Shown piece after piece: positions 6,142-43,802 of a stretch of 45,117 nucleotides of DNA (within the stretch, counting starts at the first letter, position 1; each line of letters starts with the position of its first letter). The notes below the pieces were generated by a model, which worked only from the letters and a program-made list of their open reading frames with translations, did no database searches and was not told the DNA's origin. A program made the position numbers and the translations under genes. This DNA comes from Candidatus Doudnabacteria bacterium (GTDB lineage: Bacteria > Patescibacteriota > Doudnabacteria > UBA920): contig JAEUSF010000008.1 of NCBI GenBank assembly GCA_016788665.1, positions 1 to 45,117 on the forward strand. The letters are read 5' to 3'.

Positions 6142-7254
6142 TTATTTATTCTCTATATTCCTCAAAGCCAGTCCAATTGCTGTTGCCCAGCTCGAAGATT
6201 CAATCCCGCTTAAGGCAGAACTTTTAAGGCTTTCAATATTTTTCCAAGGATCTCCAATTTCAACTTTAATATTCCCTTCCTGCCCAAATTCTGCCTGCAT
6301 AGCTTCTGGTAATCCCTTTAACTTTGCTCCTCCTCCGGCCAAAATAACCTTTTCAACCGGTCTTTCAGAGCGTTCAGAATGAAATTTGAGAACATTTTTA
6401 ATTTCGGCAGTTAGGTTATTTAAAACAGGCATTAAAGCAATTTTTACATTAGGATATTCCGTCGTATTACTTAATCCAACTTTCTTTTTTATTTCCTCAC
6501 CCTTAACCGAAGAAACACCTAAGGACCTAGAAAGCCCATCAGTAAAAGCTCCCCCAGCTATGGGGACTGTCGAAGAAAATTGCAAACCTCCACTTTCCAC
6601 CATAACCAAATTACTTCTGTTAGCATCAATGTCTACTATTAAAGAAGTTTCAGTTGAATTCCACGCAATCAAACTTCGGCAAAGACTTTGGGATTCTGCT
6701 TCTAACGCGGAAGCGGTCAGACCACCGGTATCTAAAGCTTCCAAGTATTTATCTACATACTCTCTAGGAGTGGCAATTATTAAAATATTCTGCTTATCAC
6801 CGGCTTCATTTATTTTTTGCCAGTCCAAGTAAACCTGCTCAACAGGCATTGGAATAAAGCTTTCAGCTTCGTACGGCACCGCCGCTTCAGCCTCAGCATC
6901 AGACATTTTAGGAATTTGAATAACCCTTAAAAAAGACTTGGACTCAGGCAGAGAAACATTTATATAATGTGTATCAAACCTTCCAAACTGTGGCTTGTCT
7001 AGAGCCTGCTTAAGACAGAAGTTAAAAGTTTTGGTATCCACAATACTGTCATTTAAAATTGCCCCCCTTGGCAAGGGTGTCCTGGCAAAGGCCTTTAAAA
7101 TATAGCTCTTGCCTTCGGACTTAACTTCTACCAATTTTAAGCTACCAGAGCTAACATCAAGCCCTATTATGGATTTAGGTTTAGAAAAATTTAACACTTT
7201 GTTTAAAAGAATTATATAATTGATAAAAATTACATACAGAGACCGTGTTTCCAA
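6142..7254 (-). CDS. pilM: Type IV pilus assembly ATPase-like protein PilM
   Basis: Actin-fold cytoplasmic protein that binds the N-terminus of PilN. The phosphate-1 motif is IIGLDVSSGSLKLVEV (residues 29-44), the phosphate-2 region is LIVDIDANRSNLVMV, and the adenosine motif is ILAGGGAKLKGLPEAM. The frame runs from ATG 7254 (370 residues), but the first 19 residues are unlike the family, and GTG at 7197, giving VLNFSKPKSIIGLD, would match the usual PilM N-terminus. The start is therefore uncertain. It lies 15 nt after pilC in the operon. Confidence 0.9.
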   Translation of the reverse strand: METRSLYVIFINYIILLNKVLNFSKPKSIIGLDVSSGSLKLVEVKSEGKSYILKAFARTPLPRGAILNDSIVDTKTFNFCLKQALDKPQFGRFDTHYINVSLPESKSFLRVIQIPKMSDAEAEAAVPYEAESFIPMPVEQVYLDWQKINEAGDKQNILIIATPREYVDKYLEALDTGGLTASALEAESQSLCRSLIAWNSTETSLIVDIDANRSNLVMVESGGLQFSSTVPIAGGAFTDGLSRSLGVSSVKGEEIKKKVGLSNTTEYPNVKIALMPVLNNLTAEIKNVLKFHSERSERPVEKVILAGGGAKLKGLPEAMQAEFGQEGNIKVEIGDPWKNIESLKSSALSGIESSSWATAIGLALRNIENK

Positions 7255-7269
7255 ATAACATTTTTATCA

Positions 7270-8478
7270 CTACTTAATATTTTGACTTATGTTATATATA
7301 GGCATTATAAGTGCCATGGCAAGCACACCCACAACTCCACCAATCACCAAAAGTAACAAAGGTTCAATAATAGAAGACAGGTTCCGCAAAGTATTATCGA
7401 CATCATCTTCATAATGCTCCGCTAATTGGTTAAGCATGTCCTCCACTGTTCCGCTCTCTTCTCCGACCTGAAGCATTTGAACCACTAAAACCGGAAAAAG
7501 ATTTGGGGATTGCGACAGTGTATCGGTTAAATTTTTTCCAACCTTTACCTGCTCCGCAGCTTCCGCAGTAATTTCCTTATAGGCCACATTACCCAAAGAT
7601 TCCGAAGTCACCTCAAGCGCCTGAACCATGTTAATACTACTTTTTAACAATGAACTTAAAATTCTCGAAAATCTGGCCAAATTTATTTTTCTCACAATGT
7701 CACCTATGACTAAGGTATGAAGCAATCCAAAATCAAACAATTTTTCTCCCAGACTGGTTCTTAAAAACGAAACAACTCCGGCAATAACAGCTATTAACCC
7801 ACCGATTACCACCACAGCATGTCCCGACATAAAATCTGCAAACTTAACAATAACTCGGGTGGCAAAAGGCAGTTCAGTACTAAAATCCTTAAACACCGAA
7901 GTTAGTTTTGGCAAAACAAAAATCGACATAGCAACACCAATAATAAGCATTGCGCCTACTATAACTGAAGGGTAAATCATTGCGCCCTTTGTCTTGCTTT
8001 TTAAATCCGCCTCGCGCTTAAGCTGTATGGTCAAATATTCCAAACTCTTTTCAAGGCTGCCCGACATTTCTCCCACTTTAACCATGCTTAAGAAAATATT
8101 TGAAAATACACCGGAATGCATGGCTAGAGCGTCTGACAAATATTTACCCGACTGAACCTGTCCACAAACGTCTGAAAGAATACTTTTAAATCTTAAATTT
8201 TTTGTTTGTTTAGTTAGGATTTGCAAAGCTTTAGGCAAGGAAATGCCGGCTTTATACATTATTTGCAAATTCTCTACAAAACCCAGCTTTTCATCTAAAG
8301 AAATAGTTGAAAATTTCCTCAACAGATCGAAGACATTTTTTTCATCCTTTTCTTTTATCTCAACTGGTATAAGCCCCTGCTCCTTAAGCATATGCCCGGC
8401 AACGCTTAAACTGGCTGCTTTTATAGTAGCCCTCTCCCGCCTGCCATCTTTTGTTAAAGCTTCGTATGTATATTCCAT
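7270..8478 (-). CDS. pilC: Type IV pilus / type II secretion platform protein PilC
   Basis: 402 residues, the usual length. An N-terminal cytoplasmic region (MEYTYEALTKDGRRERATI) is followed by two T2SSF repeats (about residues 65-190 and 270-395), each ending in membrane segments. Family hallmarks are GISLPKALQIL, VKVGEMSGSLEKSLEYL and, in the second copy, LQVGEESGTVEDMLNQLAE. It forms the inner-membrane platform turned by PilB. It lies 59 nt after pilB, with a tandem repeat in the gap. Confidence 0.93.
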   Translation of the reverse strand: MEYTYEALTKDGRRERATIKAASLSVAGHMLKEQGLIPVEIKEKDEKNVFDLLRKFSTISLDEKLGFVENLQIMYKAGISLPKALQILTKQTKNLRFKSILSDVCGQVQSGKYLSDALAMHSGVFSNIFLSMVKVGEMSGSLEKSLEYLTIQLKREADLKSKTKGAMIYPSVIVGAMLIIGVAMSIFVLPKLTSVFKDFSTELPFATRVIVKFADFMSGHAVVVIGGLIAVIAGVVSFLRTSLGEKLFDFGLLHTLVIGDIVRKINLARFSRILSSLLKSSINMVQALEVTSESLGNVAYKEITAEAAEQVKVGKNLTDTLSQSPNLFPVLVVQMLQVGEESGTVEDMLNQLAEHYEDDVDNTLRNLSSIIEPLLLLVIGGVVGVLAMALIMPIYNISQNIK

Positions 8479-14986: not shown

Positions 14987-16216
14987 TTATAAACTTTTTT
15001 TCATCATTTTTTCAAAATCTTCAATATGGTGGCGAATATGAAAATTGTTTTGCGCGAATTCCCTAGCCTTCTCACCCATAACTTTAAGTTTTTCTCTATC
15101 TTGAACAAAAATTTCCATATATCTTTCATAAGTGTCTACGTCATCAGTGTCAGCCACCATACTAAACTCCGGGCTTAAATATTCCAAATGAGCGTTCCAT
15201 ATAACTGATTTATGAGAAATAATGGGCTTGCCACAAAACATTGCCTCAGCAATATTTAAGCCAAAGCTCTCTCCGTCTTTTCTAAAGTGAGCCAAAACAT
15301 CCATGGCCTCATAAAAGCCCCACATTTTATTCTCTTCCCCGCTGGGCTCCGTAAAATGCACATTCGGAATTCTTTCATCTGTAACTATTTTTTCCAAGCT
15401 CTTTGAAGGCGAAATTATTAAATAGTGTACGTTAGGATATTTTTTTACTACTCTTTGAAACGCGCGTATTCCAATAGGGTCAAATATACCTTCACTGGAA
15501 CGTCCTATACGGCCAAACACCAAATCATTTTCCGGTATACCCAACGAAGTCCTTAATTTTTGGCCATAGACCTTAGAGTTAACAACCGGGCCTTCAGAAG
15601 GCACCCACATAACTTTTATTTTTGCCTCATCCACTTTGCCTTTAAGTTTTTTAGCCACTTCCTTGGAAATACAAATATGATATTGTAAATTTTTTTGCAA
15701 ATTTACTTCACCAAAAACGTTTATAAAAATAATTGGAATATTTAACACCGAAGCGAACGGAAACTCAGGCCCCCCTGCTCCTGCTGTAACCAACAGATCA
15801 ATATTAAAATCTTTTATAACTTTGAAAATATTTGGACTCATACCCTGTACAAAATACGGCTGCACTGACTCCCGATTTTTATATTCAAACCGGATAGGAA
15901 AAACCTGACCGTCTAGCAAATACTGTAAACGTGAAGTAAAGTCATAAACTCCGGAATTCTCAATAGCTTTATCGGCATACATAAAATACACGTCATACTC
16001 GGCTTTATTTAAATTCTTGGCTAAAACCTGTAAGAATTTATCAGTTCCGCTATAACCCAAACCCATAATATTATAGAACAATATACGCTTTTTATATTTT
16101 ACAGGTGCATTAAAAAGCCCTTTTAAAAAGCTTACGCTCCTGACATAAGCTTCTCTTAACTTCCAGTATGGCTTCACATACTTTTTTAAATATTGATTTA
16201 TAGACTGAAATTTCAT
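14987..16216 (-). CDS. Family 4 glycosyltransferase
   Basis: 409 residues, two Rossmann domains. The N-terminal acceptor domain begins ILFYNIMGLGYSGTDKFLQ; the donor domain has VFGRIGRSSEGIFDPIGI, NVHYLIISPSK and the EX7E motif in ESFGLNIAEAMFCGKPIIS. A retaining enzyme using a nucleotide sugar at the cytoplasmic side. It lies 5 nt after the upstream FkbM gene. Confidence 0.9.
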   Translation of the reverse strand: MKFQSINQYLKKYVKPYWKLREAYVRSVSFLKGLFNAPVKYKKRILFYNIMGLGYSGTDKFLQVLAKNLNKAEYDVYFMYADKAIENSGVYDFTSRLQYLLDGQVFPIRFEYKNRESVQPYFVQGMSPNIFKVIKDFNIDLLVTAGAGGPEFPFASVLNIPIIFINVFGEVNLQKNLQYHICISKEVAKKLKGKVDEAKIKVMWVPSEGPVVNSKVYGQKLRTSLGIPENDLVFGRIGRSSEGIFDPIGIRAFQRVVKKYPNVHYLIISPSKSLEKIVTDERIPNVHFTEPSGEENKMWGFYEAMDVLAHFRKDGESFGLNIAEAMFCGKPIISHKSVIWNAHLEYLSPEFSMVADTDDVDTYERYMEIFVQDREKLKVMGEKAREFAQNNFHIRHHIEDFEKMMKKSL

Positions 16217-34210: not shown

Positions 34211-34849
34211 TTACTGCTCTAGGATCCAGACTGATCCCGCGGACAAGAGCTCCCATCCGTTACCGATGAACAGCTCGTCTATCTCCACACAGACAGAATG
34301 TTCGCGTACTGTCCCGGCCAGATCCTCAACCATTCCGCGCAACCGATCCTGATTAACCTCCTTTGAGGTGAGCCGCCCGACGGTGGAGTGGATCCAGTCG
34401 GGTACTTTCACCTGAACACCTTCCGGTAGCTGTGGCAAACACTGCTGGACCGTCTCCCTCCACACACTCATGAACGCTGGAGGCTGATCGTTGGTCAGCA
34501 GAAACTCTCCAGTCGGAGTGAGCAGGAAATTCCGGAAAACCATTTCCTCCCCAGGCGGTTTCAGCTGCAGACCCATAATCTGGGCCTTTATGTTATCTTC
34601 CAGAGCCTCGCCAGCCCCTTCGACAATCAACACGGTGGTATGAGCCGGGTAGTGAAACCCCGCCTCATACACGTGCCCCAGGTCACCCATGGCCGAACTA
34701 ATATAGTCCGGCAGGGTGTACGTTGCCGCCACAATCAGCTGGCGGCTGGAAACTTCCTGAACCCAGCCGCACACGTCTTCACGAACTTCAAGCTTTCCTT
34801 GCTCTAAGGCAGCAAGGCCAGCCTTGTATAGATTTTGGGACTTACCCAA
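34211..34849 (-). CDS. 2H-phosphoesterase-like protein (G+C-rich cassette A)
   Basis: 212 residues from TTG 34849, which sits nine bases after the Shine-Dalgarno AGGGAGG. Two HxT(V) motifs, HTTVLIV (H70-T72) and HSTVGRL (H154-T156), lie 84 residues apart, as in 2H phosphoesterases such as 2'-5' RNA ligase or cyclic-phosphodiesterase relatives. The fold is assigned from these motifs only; other parts are not recognised. Base composition is far more G+C-rich than the neighbouring genes, and the gene has its own promoter and terminator. It sits opposite in strand to both neighbours, between a GDPD-like gene and a nucleotidyltransferase. Confidence 0.7.
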   Translation of the reverse strand: MGKSQNLYKAGLAALEQGKLEVREDVCGWVQEVSSRQLIVAATYTLPDYISSAMGDLGHVYEAGFHYPAHTTVLIVEGAGEALEDNIKAQIMGLQLKPPGEEMVFRNFLLTPTGEFLLTNDQPPAFMSVWRETVQQCLPQLPEGVQVKVPDWIHSTVGRLTSKEVNQDRLRGMVEDLAGTVREHSVCVEIDELFIGNGWELLSAGSVWILEQ

Positions 34850-38430: not shown

Positions 38431-39147
38431 ATGTTTTCAATAATAGTACCGTTTTATAACGAGTCAAAAAATATAAAGCTTGTTTTGGAAGAATTTAAAA
38501 AATTTCAAGGCAAATACGACTTTGAGCTTATTTGTGTAAACGACGGCTCCAAAGACGACACGGAAACAGTTTTAAACGAACATAAAAACAGCGGTCACTA
38601 CCCTTTTATGGAATTTATTTCCTACTACCCTAATGGCGGCTACGGCAACGCCATTATGACCGGAGTCCGCACCGCTAAAGGCGAAGTTATTGCCTGGACT
38701 CATAGCGACATGCAAACTCCGGTTTCCGATGTCTTTAAAGCTTATGACTATTATTGTTCTCTAGCTACCTCCTACCCGCTACAAGCTACACGCTTTCTCA
38801 TAAAAGGATGGAGAGTAAATCGTACCCTTCAGCAAGTTATTTTAAGTTTTGGCATGGCTATAATAGCGAGTGTTATTCTAAGAAGAAAGCTTACCGAAAT
38901 AAACGCCCAGCCTAAACTTTTCCCCCGCTCTATGGTAGACTTGCTAAAAAATGCGCCAAAAGATTTTTCTTTAGACTTATATTTACTTTGTATTGCGCAA
39001 AACAACAACTATAAAATAAAAACCATAGACGTAAGTTTTAAAAACCGTATTCACGGAGAGTCTTCTTGGGCAAGTGATTGGAGAACCAAGCATAAAACTA
39101 TTTTAAGAAGTATAAAATATATTTGTAAACTAAGAAAAGAAGTATAA
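38431..39147 (+). CDS. DPM1-like family 2 glycosyltransferase
   Basis: 238 residues. FSIIVPFYNESKNIKLVLEEF, ICVNDGSKDDT (34-44), AWTHSDMQTP (88-97, metal and donor site) and GYGNAIMTGVRTAKGEVI mark a polyprenyl-phosphate glycosyltransferase of the dolichol-phosphate-mannose synthase type. A degenerate repeat tract encodes about residues 110-121 (SLATSYPLQATR), before KGWRVNR, which is normally reached directly in this family. Confidence 0.9.
   Translation: MFSIIVPFYNESKNIKLVLEEFKKFQGKYDFELICVNDGSKDDTETVLNEHKNSGHYPFMEFISYYPNGGYGNAIMTGVRTAKGEVIAWTHSDMQTPVSDVFKAYDYYCSLATSYPLQATRFLIKGWRVNRTLQQVILSFGMAIIASVILRRKLTEINAQPKLFPRSMVDLLKNAPKDFSLDLYLLCIAQNNNYKIKTIDVSFKNRIHGESSWASDWRTKHKTILRSIKYICKLRKEV
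38758..38793 (+). repeat. In-frame degenerate repeat tract in the DPM1-like gene
   Basis: The sequence ctagctacctcctacccgct and acaagctacacgctttctc repeats a CTAC/GCTA unit. It keeps the frame and codes residues about 110-121. The same kind of sequence occurs in the intergenic tract at 38360-38403. Confidence 0.5.
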
Positions 39148-39154
39148 AAAAATA

Positions 39155-39176
39155 GGCGGCGCACTTAAGCGTCGCC
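39155..39176 (-). terminator. Terminator of the metallo-beta-lactamase-fold gene
   Basis: Stem GGCGGCGC (39155-39162)/GCGTCGCC (39169-39176), one G-T pair, loop ACTTAA. On the minus strand it starts right after the stop codon and is followed by TATTTTTTT. The convergent glycosyltransferase gene ends 8 nt away on the other side. Confidence 0.8.
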
Positions 39177-39177
39177 T

Positions 39178-40041
39178 TTAAAGCACTAAAATTCCCTTAT
39201 CCCGGGCAAGATCCACTCGAAAATCGAATGTCCTTGCAAACCGCGCGGCCTCGGACAACCTTTCCATCATTTTGCGGTCCTCAGAGTCTGTGCGGTACGG
39301 GTGATGAAAAAGCGTCAGGTGTTTTACCCCGGCAGCTTCCGCCACCTGTACGACCACCTCGGGGCCCGAGTGAGGCCGCGGAGACGTTCTGTTGTAATAT
39401 TCCCGGTTCGTATATTCGCAGTCGGCGATCAGGAAATCGGCGCCCTGGCAGAGCTCCACCAGCTTTTCTTTGCTGGCGCCAAAGTCCACATCCGTGGCGT
39501 AAACCACGGTCGGGCCGCCCTTGAACGAAAGGCGTATGGAGTAAGACTCACCCGCCCCGTGCACAACCGGGACAAAGGTGGCGGTACAAACCCCGTCATA
39601 CCACACACTGCCAGTGTGCATAACCACCGTAATGTCCGGTGAAAGCTCCTCCTTAACCTTCGCCCAAGTTATGGGCCCAGGCGAAATCGGCTCCCGCATA
39701 AGCGCATGCAAAACATCGTCCACGGTCTGCCCCGCTATGCGGGGTCCAACGAGCCTCATCCTGCCAAAACTCTTGTCCCACAGCCCATCGCCCAAGAGCC
39801 AGAGACCGCAGATGTGGTCCAAGTGGTAGTGGCTAAAGAACACCCCACCAACCGGGTTCTTCGGCTTCCCGGCCGAACAAAAGCGGGTAAACCCGCTGCC
39901 AGCGTCGAGCAAATAACTCGTGCCGTTAAAAAATACCTCTACACACGGTGTGTCGTAACACACCCGCCCAACCGGACGGTCAAAGTTTCCTCCGGCCATG
40001 CCGCCAACCGTTCCCCAAAACTTTACAAAAAAATCAGACAT
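39178..40041 (-). CDS. Metallo-beta-lactamase-fold hydrolase (G+C-rich cassette B)
   Basis: 287 residues. Zinc-binding motif HYHLDH (H71, H73, D75, H76), a further histidine in VVHGAG, an aspartate in YATDVD and LFHHPYRTD near the C-terminus match the RNase Z/phosphodiesterase branch of the MBL fold. Substrate unknown; a phosphodiester or cyclic nucleotide is possible. Strongly G+C-rich, with promoter TTGAAA-17-TATAAT, Shine-Dalgarno AGGAGG five bases before ATG and a terminator right after the stop. No sign of coupling with the resident neighbours. Confidence 0.82.
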   Translation of the reverse strand: MSDFFVKFWGTVGGMAGGNFDRPVGRVCYDTPCVEVFFNGTSYLLDAGSGFTRFCSAGKPKNPVGGVFFSHYHLDHICGLWLLGDGLWDKSFGRMRLVGPRIAGQTVDDVLHALMREPISPGPITWAKVKEELSPDITVVMHTGSVWYDGVCTATFVPVVHGAGESYSIRLSFKGGPTVVYATDVDFGASKEKLVELCQGADFLIADCEYTNREYYNRTSPRPHSGPEVVVQVAEAAGVKHLTLFHHPYRTDSEDRKMMERLSEAARFARTFDFRVDLARDKGILVL

Positions 40042-40070
40042 CGCTACCTCCTCTCAAATTCGAACACAAC

Positions 40071-40099
40071 ATTATACCACCAAAGCCCTTGATTTTCAA
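40071..40099 (-). promoter_or_regulatory. Promoter of cassette B
   Basis: On the minus strand TTGAAA (40099-40094), a 17-nt spacer ending in TGG, and TATAAT (40076-40071). The stretch TGGTATAATGTTGTGTTCG resembles TGGTATAGTGTTGAGTCCG of cassette A. Confidence 0.75.
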
Positions 40100-40109
40100 G
40101 GGCTTTTTT
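40082..40109 (+). terminator. Terminator-like hairpin between divergent G+C-rich genes
   Basis: Perfect 11-bp stem AAAGCCCTTGA/TCAAGGGCTTT, TTT loop, then three more Ts (six in a row). It is oriented like a plus-strand intrinsic terminator, but lies between divergent genes and overlaps both -35 elements. It may block read-through, or be an operator or a joint between two cassettes. Confidence 0.7.
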
Positions 40110-40117
40110 GATAGTAT
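40089..40117 (+). promoter_or_regulatory. Probable promoter of cassette C
   Basis: TTGATT (40089-40094), 17-nt spacer, TAGTAT (40112-40117) preceded by TGA (extended -10). Each hexamer matches consensus at four of six. The -35 is inside the hairpin stem. Confidence 0.45.
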
Positions 40118-40122
40118 ATTTG

Positions 40123-40144
40123 GTCACGCCTAAAGGAGGGTGAC
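40123..40144 (+). promoter_or_regulatory. Shine-Dalgarno in a hairpin loop (cassette C)
   Basis: GTCAC (40123-40127) pairs with GTGAC (40140-40144) around a 12-nt loop containing AAGGAGG (40133-40139). The ATG follows eight bases after the Shine-Dalgarno. Confidence 0.6.
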
Positions 40145-40147
40145 ACA

Positions 40148-41053
40148 ATGGATTTACAATCACTTATCGAGGTGGTTATTGAACAAGTGCGCATCGGCGC
40201 ACTAACCATCGCCGAAATGGCCGGGTTACCCCTCGGCCTCACCTACAAGGCAGCCGAAAGTAACACCCCCGCCACTGCCATGGGCATGCGGGCCGCGGAA
40301 AGAATACGCGCCTACACCGAACAGCGGTGTGAGGAACTCGGACTTCCGTTCTTCGCCGTCAGCGAAGAAATCAAGAACTTCGGCGACCCGGCGGCGAAAT
40401 TGGTTTTTTACATCGACCCGGACGACGGGTCGAGCCGGATGCCCATTTGGCAGCAGGGCGACCTTCTGCCCGTGACCGGCTCCTGCGCTGTGGTTGATGG
40501 ACAAACCGTTGTCGCCGCGTACGGCGACCCGAGCCACAATGAAATCGTTTTGGCCATAAAAGGCCACGGTGCTTGGATATTGCCGCTGGACGGAAGCGGC
40601 ACACACAATACTTTCGTCACCCGCAAGCCTGCGCAGCCGCACGCCAAAAGTTGCATGTATGTGGACGCGCTCCAAAACGACGAGACGCGGATTGCTTTCT
40701 CCATCGTCATGCGCGAACTCGGCCGCTACTGCATGAACATGCGCACCGAGGCTTCCTGCCTCACACACCTAGGGCGCCTCATGCGCGGCCAGTGCGACCT
40801 GGTACTGGTTCATGCCATGTCCGGCTTCTGGGACATCGGCATCGCGCTCGGCTGCCAGGAGGTCGGCTGCAAAGTGACCGACATCAATGGCAACGACATT
40901 TCCAGTCCCGCCGGCTCGCCGCGCCGCGACGGCAGCTACCCGCTGCTGCTCGCAACAGCTCCCGGGCTGCCGCACGAAGAGATTCTGAAAAAAGTCCAAG
41001 AGGCTTATGGGTTCGACTACCCCGGCTTTCGGGGTAAGGACGAATACAAGTAA
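40148..41053 (+). CDS. Inositol monophosphatase-family protein (G+C-rich cassette C)
   Basis: 301 residues of the Li+-sensitive sugar phosphatase fold: metal-binding VSEE (E73, E74), IDPDDGSS (D90, D92, D93; the family has DPLDGT), and FWDIGIALGCQEVGCKVTDI (D229). It probably removes phosphate from inositol, fructose-1,6-bisphosphate or a similar metabolite. G+C is high (31 and 38 per 60 nt in two counted lines, against 20 of 60 in the next gene). Own promoter, strong Shine-Dalgarno and terminator. Divergent from the MBL-fold gene. Confidence 0.88.
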   Translation: MDLQSLIEVVIEQVRIGALTIAEMAGLPLGLTYKAAESNTPATAMGMRAAERIRAYTEQRCEELGLPFFAVSEEIKNFGDPAAKLVFYIDPDDGSSRMPIWQQGDLLPVTGSCAVVDGQTVVAAYGDPSHNEIVLAIKGHGAWILPLDGSGTHNTFVTRKPAQPHAKSCMYVDALQNDETRIAFSIVMRELGRYCMNMRTEASCLTHLGRLMRGQCDLVLVHAMSGFWDIGIALGCQEVGCKVTDINGNDISSPAGSPRRDGSYPLLLATAPGLPHEEILKKVQEAYGFDYPGFRGKDEYK

Positions 41054-41064
41054 GCGCATTTCAA

Positions 41065-41099
41065 AGCCCCGAGGTTTTAACTTCAGGGCTCTTTTATTT
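41065..41099 (+). terminator. Terminator of cassette C
   Basis: AGCCC (41065-41069) pairs with GGGCT (41086-41090); after a C-A mismatch GAGG pairs with CTTC, loop TTTTAA, then CTTTTATTT. It lies 12 nt after the stop. Confidence 0.75.
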
Positions 41100-41116: not shown

Positions 41117-42571
41117 ATGAACTATTTGGCATTTGACCTAGGGGCAGAAAGCGGGAGAGCTATTTTAGGCGTGGTTAGTAAAGACAGTATAGCCTTAAAA
41201 GAAATGCATCGCTTCCCTACCAAAACTGTCATTAAAAACAAACGGCTTTGCTGGGACACAGAAAATATTTTTTCAGAAATAAAAAATGCCCTAAAAAAAA
41301 TCGCCAAACAAAACATAAAACTTTCAGGTATAGGCGTTGACACCTGGGGTGTTGACTATGGCCTTGTAGATAAAAACGGAAAGCTTTTACACTTCCCTGT
41401 TTCCTACCGAGACGTAAGGACAGACGGAGCAATGGAAAAAGTATTTAAAATCTTGCCAAAAGAAAAAATTTACAAAATTACCGGCATACAATTTTTACCC
41501 TTCAATACTCTTTACCAGCTCTATGCAGAAAACAAAAGTCTTTTAAAAAAGGCTGACAAACTTTTGTTCATACCGGACTTAATAAACTTTTATTTGACTG
41601 GAAAAGTAATAACAGAAAAAACTATAGCTAGTACTTCTCAAGTTTTAAGCCACCAGGGCAAATTGTCAGAAGAAATTTTGAATGAGCTAAATTTACCTAA
41701 AAAAATAATGCCGGAGTTTTCAAATTCCATAGTAGGCAAACTGAAAAATCTGGACGAAGATATAAAATCTTTATCAGGCACACCAGTTTTTAGTATTGGC
41801 TCCCACGACACAGCTTCAGCTGTAGCCGCTGTACCAGTTATCAACAGAGACAATTGGGCATTTTTAAGTTCTGGTACCTGGTCTTTACTTGGAGCAGAAA
41901 CCCCAAAAGCAATAATTAATAAAAATACTTTAGAAAAAAACTTTACCAACGAAAAAGGCGTATTTAATACTAACCGCTTTTTAAAAAATATTGCCGGCCT
42001 TTGGTTACTGCAAAAGTGCAAAAAAGAATGGGAACAGCAAGGAAAAAAGTTTACTTACACAGAACTTACTCAAATGGCAAAAAGGGCGCCCAGCTTTAAA
42101 AGCCTAATACCCGTAAACCATAAAAGCTTTCTACATCCAAAAAGCATGACAAAAGCCATAGTGGAATTCTGTAAAAGAACTAAGCAGCCTGCTCCTTCGT
42201 CGCCTAGGGAATTTACATGCTGTATTTTGGAATCTTTAAGTTTAGAATATAAAAAAACTTTACTTGAGTTAGAAAGTCTTGTTGGCAAAAGAATTCAAAC
42301 CCTACATATTTTGGGCGGGGGCAGTCAAAACGAACTTTTAAACCAATTTGCCGCAAGTGCAACTGGCAAAGTGGTAAAAGCTGGACCGGTTGAAGCAACC
42401 GCACTTGGGAATATAATGGTTCAGGCAATTTTAAATGAACAAGTAAGAGATTTAAAATCTGCCCGCAAAATAATTGCAAAAAGTATAGAATTAAAAACCT
42501 ATAAACCACAAAACACTAAATTGTGGAGTAAGGCTTATATAAGGTATACTAAGCTAAATTATGAACTATAA
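41117..42571 (+). CDS. rhaB: Rhamnulokinase-like FGGY carbohydrate kinase
   Basis: 484 residues. The N-terminal phosphate motif is [13 protein letters not shown], with [15 protein letters not shown] and [10 protein letters not shown] as sugar-binding and family blocks, [12 protein letters not shown] the linking motif and [13 protein letters not shown] the adenosine motif. The AESGRA and TWGVDYGL forms are typical of L-rhamnulose kinase. It overlaps the isomerase gene by 11 nt, supporting a rhamnose role; no rhamnulose-1-phosphate aldolase gene is in the window. Confidence 0.88.
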
Positions 42572-43802
42572 AGAATCTTACAAAATCTTTTCCGAAGACT
42601 TGCACGCAAGGGGTCTTAATTTAGAGTTGGTAAAAAATAGGCTCAAAAAACAAAAAATAGAAACTCCTTCGTGGGGTTACGCAAACAGCGGGACTCGATT
42701 TGCCACCTTCCCCTACCCGGGAGCCGCGCGTACTTTAGAAGAAAAAATCGAAGACGCGGCCATGGTCCATAAACTTACCGGCATCGCCCCCTCCGTAGCT
42801 TTACACATACCTTGGGACAAAACTAGCGACTGGGAAAAAACAAAAACTTATGCGGAAAACTTAGGAGTTAGTATTGGTGCTATAAATCCTAATTTATTTC
42901 AGAATGAAACTTACAAATTCGGTTCGCTTGCAAATTCCAATGAAGGAATCAGAAAACAGGCTATTGAGCATGTAAAAGAATGTATAGAAATAATGAAAAA
43001 GACGGGTTCTAAAGACCTGTCTTTATGGCTAGCTGACGGCAGCAACTACGCAGGACAGGTTAACATGCAACAAAGAAAATTATTGCTTGAAGAATCACTA
43101 AACGAAATTTACAACTTTTTACCCGAAGATAAAAGACTCTTAATTGAGTACAAATTTTTTGAACCAGCCTTTTACCATACCGACCTACCCGATTGGGGCA
43201 CTGCTTATGCATTTAGTAAAAAATTAGGAGAAAAGGCAAAGGTTTTAGTCGACACAGGACACCATGCTCCTGGCACGAACATTGAACAAATTGTTGCATT
43301 TTTACTTACCGAAAATTCTTTGGGTGGTTTTCACTTTAACGCCCGAAAATACGCAGACGACGACCTTATAGTCGGCTCCGTAAACCCTTTTGAACTGTTT
43401 TTAATATTTATTGAACTAGTTATAGCTGAAAATTCAACTGGCATATCTAAGACCTGCGCAGATAACATAAGTTACATGATAGACCAGTCCCACAACATAG
43501 AACCCAAAATAGAAGCTATGGTTCAGTCTATTATTAACTGCCAGACCGCGTTTGCCAAAGCCCTACTAGTTGACTACAAGAGCTTACAAGAAAAACAAAA
43601 CACAGGCGATGTTTTAGGAGCCCACAGAGAACTAACCCTTGCCTTTGAAACCGACGTAAAACCTTTGCTCTATACTTTACGGGAAGAAATGAATTTAAAC
43701 CCTGACCCAATAAAGGCCTTACACGAAAACGACTACCAAAACAAAATCACTGCCGAAAGAGGCAGCGACACAAACCAATCAAGCGGATATCCTACAGCAT
43801 AG
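42561..43802 (+). CDS. rhaI: L-rhamnose isomerase-type sugar isomerase (RhaI)
   Basis: 413 residues, xylose-isomerase-like TIM barrel. The putative metal ligands are E196 (LIEYK), D231 and H234 ([16 protein letters not shown]), H258 (GGFHFN), D266 and D268. Their spacing (35, 3, 27, 8, 2) equals that remembered for the Pseudomonas stutzeri L-rhamnose isomerase. Converts L-rhamnose to L-rhamnulose, the substrate of the upstream kinase. The 3' end overlaps the opposite-strand gene by 11 bp. Confidence 0.9.

Follow-up and report, generated by a model that had tools for sequence, protein, structure and literature searches.

Two G+C-rich genes form a divergent pair beside glycan and rhamnose genes in the stretch of DNA analysed here (45,117 nucleotides of a Candidatus Doudnabacteria genome; hereafter, the window). 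A sequence-only reading took them, together with a third such gene nearby, for a recurrent class of imported phospho-metabolism genes rather than for the product of one chance transfer. The locus raises the question of whether such a class exists in this genome, where its members came from, and whether phosphate chemistry is what they have in common.

The divergent gene pair and its signals

The pair is flanked by a family-2 glycosyltransferase gene on the left (38431–39147) and by the rhamnulokinase and L-rhamnose isomerase genes, both of ordinary G+C, on the right (41117–43802). The reverse-strand gene (39178–40041; 287 aa) encodes an MBL-fold metallo-hydrolase and the forward-strand gene (40148–41053; 301 aa) a protein of the inositol-monophosphatase/FBPase family (hereafter, the IMPase-family protein). 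The open reading frames, the Pfam matches and the G+C contents (0.5625 and 0.595, respectively) bear out the initial description of both; with the main mode of the genome's ORFs at 0.389 (standard deviation 0.031), each gene lies more than five standard deviations above it. Third-position G+C is 0.66 in the MBL gene and 0.73 in the IMPase-family gene, the three codon positions of the latter having values of 0.62/0.44/0.73.

The MBL protein matches PF12706 (60.5 bits, cut-off 27) and PF00753 (28.5 bits, cut-off 22.7), and a metal motif of the HxHxDH type (HYHLDH) was seen by eye. It has the same fold and metal motif as the RNase Z, arylsulfatase and cyclic-nucleotide phosphodiesterase branches of the MBL-fold hydrolases and matches several branches weakly, but it falls far under all equivalog cut-offs (e.g., 51 vs. 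293 bits for RNase Z). Its most probable function is that of a metal-dependent phosphodiesterase or hydrolase. The IMPase-family protein matches Inositol_P (PF00459) over its full length (37.9 bits, cut-off 27) and carries SEE, IDPDDGSS and WD metal-site motifs, also seen by eye; its single NCBIfam match reached 17 bits against a cut-off of 264, and a comparison with the PDB gave no relative at E ≤ 0.01. A metal-dependent sugar or nucleotide phosphatase is the most likely prediction.

Both genes have the strong Shine-Dalgarno (SD) sites ascribed to them, AGGAGG-N5-ATG for the MBL gene (40039–40052, reverse strand) and AGGAGG-N8-ATG for the IMPase-family gene (40134–40150, forward strand). Terminators were likewise recovered at both outer ends, each with a predicted energy of −13.7 kcal/mol and a z-score near −3. 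That of the MBL gene (39155–39176, reverse strand; z = −2.97, none of 200 shuffles as stable) has an imperfect stem and a run of seven T, and that of the IMPase-family gene (41065–41099, forward strand; z = −2.91) is followed by a T-run; both contain mismatches and were therefore overlooked by a simple hairpin scan. The proposal that each gene has its own promoter held for the MBL gene, which is preceded by a sigma70-like TTGAAA-17-TATAAT (40071–40099, reverse strand; 11/12 matches, TG ahead of the second hexamer). It was not supported for the IMPase-family gene: the candidate is weak (TTTTCA-16-TATATT, 9/12), and promoter-like sites are no more common in the pair region than in shuffled sequences (10 vs. 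11.2). A further hairpin, not mentioned in the sequence-only reading, was observed between the two genes (40081–40108, forward strand; perfect 11-bp stem with a T-tail, −16.5 kcal/mol, z = −5.33); it overlaps the promoter of the MBL gene and is oriented towards read-through on the forward strand.

The third solitary G+C-rich unit of the window, cassette A (34211–34849, reverse strand; 212 aa), has a terminator directly 3′ of the gene (−18.8 kcal/mol). Two HxT/S motifs, seen by eye alone, suggest a 2H phosphoesterase; the protein has no match in Pfam, NCBIfam or PDB, and its AlphaFold model, computed for the protein alone, is uninformative (pLDDT 34).

A genome-wide class of solitary G+C-rich genes

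Our analysis shows that both genes of the pair belong to a class of solitary accessory genes spread over the whole genome. The sample covered 0.81 Mb of the 1.06-Mb genome, with ORFs called mechanically and the start codon of each ORF, in both classes compared, taken as that with the best SD within 150 nt. Median ORF G+C is 0.395, and the distribution over 746 ORFs is bimodal, with a second mode at 0.513 that accounts for 12% by weight; two components were preferred over one by 225 BIC units.

We compared 76 ORFs with G+C of at least 0.475 with 643 ordinary ORFs below 0.445. The class is compositionally separate (fourfold-site G+C of 0.60 vs. 0.37 in ordinary genes), mostly monocistronic (35/76 have an upstream gene on the same strand, vs. 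493/643) and more often followed by a terminator (27/76 vs. 93/643), its terminators being the stronger ones; a T6-A-T tail ends 27 of the 49 G+C-rich units with SD of at least 5 and 22 of 232 ordinary transcription units. Its start site, AGGAGG, is nearly unused by ordinary genes (33/76 vs. 4/643, p = 1.8e-31), and its frequency in the G+C-rich units is 0.469, compared with 0.005 in shuffles of the same bases. Some of the 76 are spurious (SD below 5, antisense, or in structural RNA regions), so that this SD contrast is probably an underestimate.

The scan that the sequence-only reading had named as its decisive check, for terminators, AGGAGG and G+C more than two standard deviations above the mean, was thus positive: 98 ORFs in the 0.81 Mb exceed the main mode by that much (G+C > 0.451), and 43 of them also have SD of at least 5 and a terminator. 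Overall, the class comprises approximately 75 solitary, unrelated genes, about a tenth of the genome's genes, and the contrary expectation, that there would be no further units of this kind, is excluded.

As the assembly is at draft level, with 36 contigs, foreign contigs or chimeras from assembly or binning might be suspected. Yet the single-gene units lie within long contigs between ordinary genes in nine of the 12 contigs sampled, contamination is 0.54%, and independent assemblies contain the same class with other genes, and we regard such an artefact as extremely improbable.

Functions encoded by the class

In 67 G+C-rich proteins 34 Pfam families were matched, compared with 140 in 67 length-matched ordinary proteins, and most members match no known family. 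The families found are mixed: two MBL proteins, cupins, a methyltransferase, a subtilase, a PIG-L deacetylase, RRM, DksA, PurF, a PfkB kinase and PEP-CTERM proteins. Import restricted to phosphate metabolism, as first proposed, could appeal to the IMPase-family gene, the MBL gene, the possible 2H phosphoesterase, the PfkB kinase and PurF. These are, however, a minority beside the members without a family and the mixed remainder; the phospho-metabolism label is not supported, and a restriction of this kind is very improbable.

The PEP-CTERM domain scored above cut-off in one member of this genome (L018:949-1419) and in two members of G006, the closest well-assembled relative. Exosortase was not found in the four genomes searched, these two included, and PEP-CTERM members without exosortase point to foreign donors. 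PEP-CTERM-like tails were observed at L018:949-1419, L018:5883-6503 and L026:17097-17603 (two of these own genes by eye) and in G006 at L109:1389-2036 and L072:2257-2865.

Other loci were noted in passing. The second MBL-fold unit of the genome (L023:18690-19520; G+C-rich, with AGGAGG) is a distant relative of the window MBL gene and matches Apyc1 weakly. At L015:13661-19595, four G+C-rich genes with transmembrane and coiled-coil-like sequence and practically no family match stand in a row on one strand.

Variable content among related genomes

The content of the class largely differs between related genomes. In G006 (RecA 87% identical; 673 kb sampled), only five of the 76 G+C-rich ORFs have a homologue, compared with 383 of the 643 ordinary ORFs (p = 2.7e-20). 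At three sites that carry a unit in the present genome, G006 has the two flanking genes side by side, separated by 11, 72 and 115 bp, and one further site holds different G+C-rich genes in the two genomes. Members occupy variable sites, a point that the sequence-only reading had proposed to check. A composition and location common to orthologues across the lineage is excluded for most members, although for a few, homologues that are likewise G+C-rich occur elsewhere.

The MBL and IMPase-family proteins have no match in 60 relatives, nor in any other genome of a phylum sample that comprised 380 genomes from 313 genera. Since none of the other 97 genomes searched has the neighboring rhaB, the glycan/rhamnose area is itself accessory and the absence of the pair alone proves little; the empty sites described above belong to other members of the class.

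Weaker versions of the class, holding different genes, occur in related genomes. Genes with AGGAGG are richer in G+C than the rest by 0.08 in G006 and by 0.05 in G020, G007 and G038; G028 and G003 show barely any such excess and the distant G071 none, and in G064 (median G+C 0.638) these genes are poorer (0.576, five genes only). These values, although from small samples, fit a source pool with G+C of about 0.5–0.58 whatever the recipient. A histidine-phosphatase-like unit is common to G020 (L086:598-1323) and G006 (L115:12123-12779) and G+C-rich in each. Despite the RecA identity, the G+C of the present genome and of G006 (0.396 vs. 0.504) are about 0.11 apart, which is fast compositional drift inside one family.

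Origin of the class

The foreign composition, the absence from G006 and the empty sites make an imported origin likely, as the sequence-only reading had supposed. At the three codon positions the members have G+C of 0.58/0.43/0.60, compared with 0.53/0.38/0.59 in ordinary G006 genes of the same third-position G+C; at the second position the values are 0.434 and 0.376. All 11 relatives retrieved for the PurF member lie outside the phylum (best 50%), and the window MBL protein has distant relatives (approximately 30%) on rhizobial plasmids. Against an imported origin, no donor was identified for the pair: no close relative emerged from the genome, viral, plasmid and phage collections, exact-peptide scans of genome and viral collections gave no match, and neither did a tblastn search of the MBL protein against phages.

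A native, fast-evolving class was also considered, in which selection would keep high G+C and strong initiation in secreted or accessory genes whose homologues have diverged past recognition. It would account for a start and terminator dialect common to unrelated proteins, for host-like promoters, for one site holding different G+C-rich genes in different genomes, and for the tandem paralogues and few G+C-rich homologues shared across genomes, such as the G020 and G006 pair above. The fourfold-site contrast, the PEP-CTERM domains with no exosortase found, the relationship of PurF to other phyla and the adjacency of unit-flanking genes in G006 argue against it, as does EF-Tu, normally highly expressed, with G+C of merely 0.45. 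We therefore consider a native class unlikely. Nevertheless, two tandem paralogue pairs and the few G+C-rich homologues elsewhere show that part of the class evolves inside the lineage. The pairs are L037:6227-6739 with 6881-7402, of which one copy has G+C of 0.52 and the other 0.44, and L037:14595-15065 with 15135-15533.

The borders of the units are the strangest feature of the class. Outside the coding region, G+C drops almost to the host value within about 40 nt, both before the start codon and after the stop codon, and upstream DNA is host-like (0.343 vs. 0.312), whereas foreign genomes of similar third-position G+C have 0.42–0.64 (few compared). Only the transcribed part is thus foreign in composition, which is unexpected under plain insertion of foreign fragments. 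Either the promoters were always host DNA, or selection for AT-rich promoters was strong. Amelioration of imported promoters alone was rejected, as foreign composition persists at synonymous sites but not in the host-like upstream DNA. Ordinary G006 genes combine fourfold-site G+C of 0.71 with upstream G+C of 0.42, so part of the pattern could also be imitated by a donor that belongs to the lineage.

Route of entry

A dedicated mobile system carrying single genes as transcript-bounded cassettes would explain the uniform architecture around unrelated cargo, the G+C excess that stops near transcript ends and the common terminator tail. The genome, however, contains no integron integrase above cut-off (best 145 bits vs. 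265; control genomes likewise give sub-threshold matches throughout), its sole integrase-type match being a conserved Xer-like tyrosine recombinase, and a search of it for reverse transcriptase found none. Direct repeats flanking the units are no longer than at ordinary genes, and the 13-mers common to the flanks of at least three units are mostly terminator tails. A tRNA lies within 500 bp of 7/49 units and 46/641 ordinary genes, but of 0/16 units in G006; with this weak enrichment in one genome and none in relatives, integration at tRNA sites was rejected. Such a system appears improbable.

Repeated uptake of single genes, their integration between operons and their retention as insulated units is the explanation that we consider probable. 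The genes would have come singly or in small numbers from bacteria of higher G+C that do not belong to the lineage, would have settled between host operons in either orientation, and would have been retained as expression units independent of their neighbors. Most likely, free DNA would have been taken up and then integrated non-homologously; type IV pilus-like genes are present, making DNA uptake possible. It is unlikely that an undescribed process builds or moves transcript-sized single-gene cassettes into these genomes by setting a foreign coding sequence, with its strong ribosome site and its terminator, behind host-like promoters between operons; if true, every lineage would thereby acquire dozens of insulated genes of its own.

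Significance and comparison with known systems

The usual view of streamlined bacteria that probably depend on a host is that they acquire few genes singly. Here, a tenth of the ORFs stands out as a layer of solitary units, specific to the lineage and distinct in the start sites and terminators that they use. This layer can be read from composition and AGGAGG alone, which offers a simple test of gene gain in such genomes and a list of candidate accessory functions missed by homology searches.

Integron gene cassettes are many small, unrelated single genes, mostly of unknown kind, and the present class is similar in this respect; unlike them, its units are scattered rather than arrayed, have their own start and stop signals, occur in either orientation and are accompanied by no integrase above cut-off. 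Phage morons are single genes of deviant G+C with their own promoter and terminator, a layout that the present units resemble, but the latter do not lie within prophages as far as seen; viral contigs gave no match to the pair or to cassette A, and the class has few PHROG matches, most of them metabolic. Full-text literature searches, within incomplete coverage, uncovered no earlier description of a bimodal gene class marked by AGGAGG. A study of horizontal transfer in Patescibacteria (PMC12455944) inferred, by its method, about 1.0 received gene per sampled genome, mostly from other Patescibacteria but with donors in other phyla, and islands of 2.7–45 kb. Both data sets concern single-gene gain by ultra-small bacteria; by comparison, the present genome holds about 75 solitary ORFs in 0.81 Mb, mostly without visible relatives and united by a common expression dialect.
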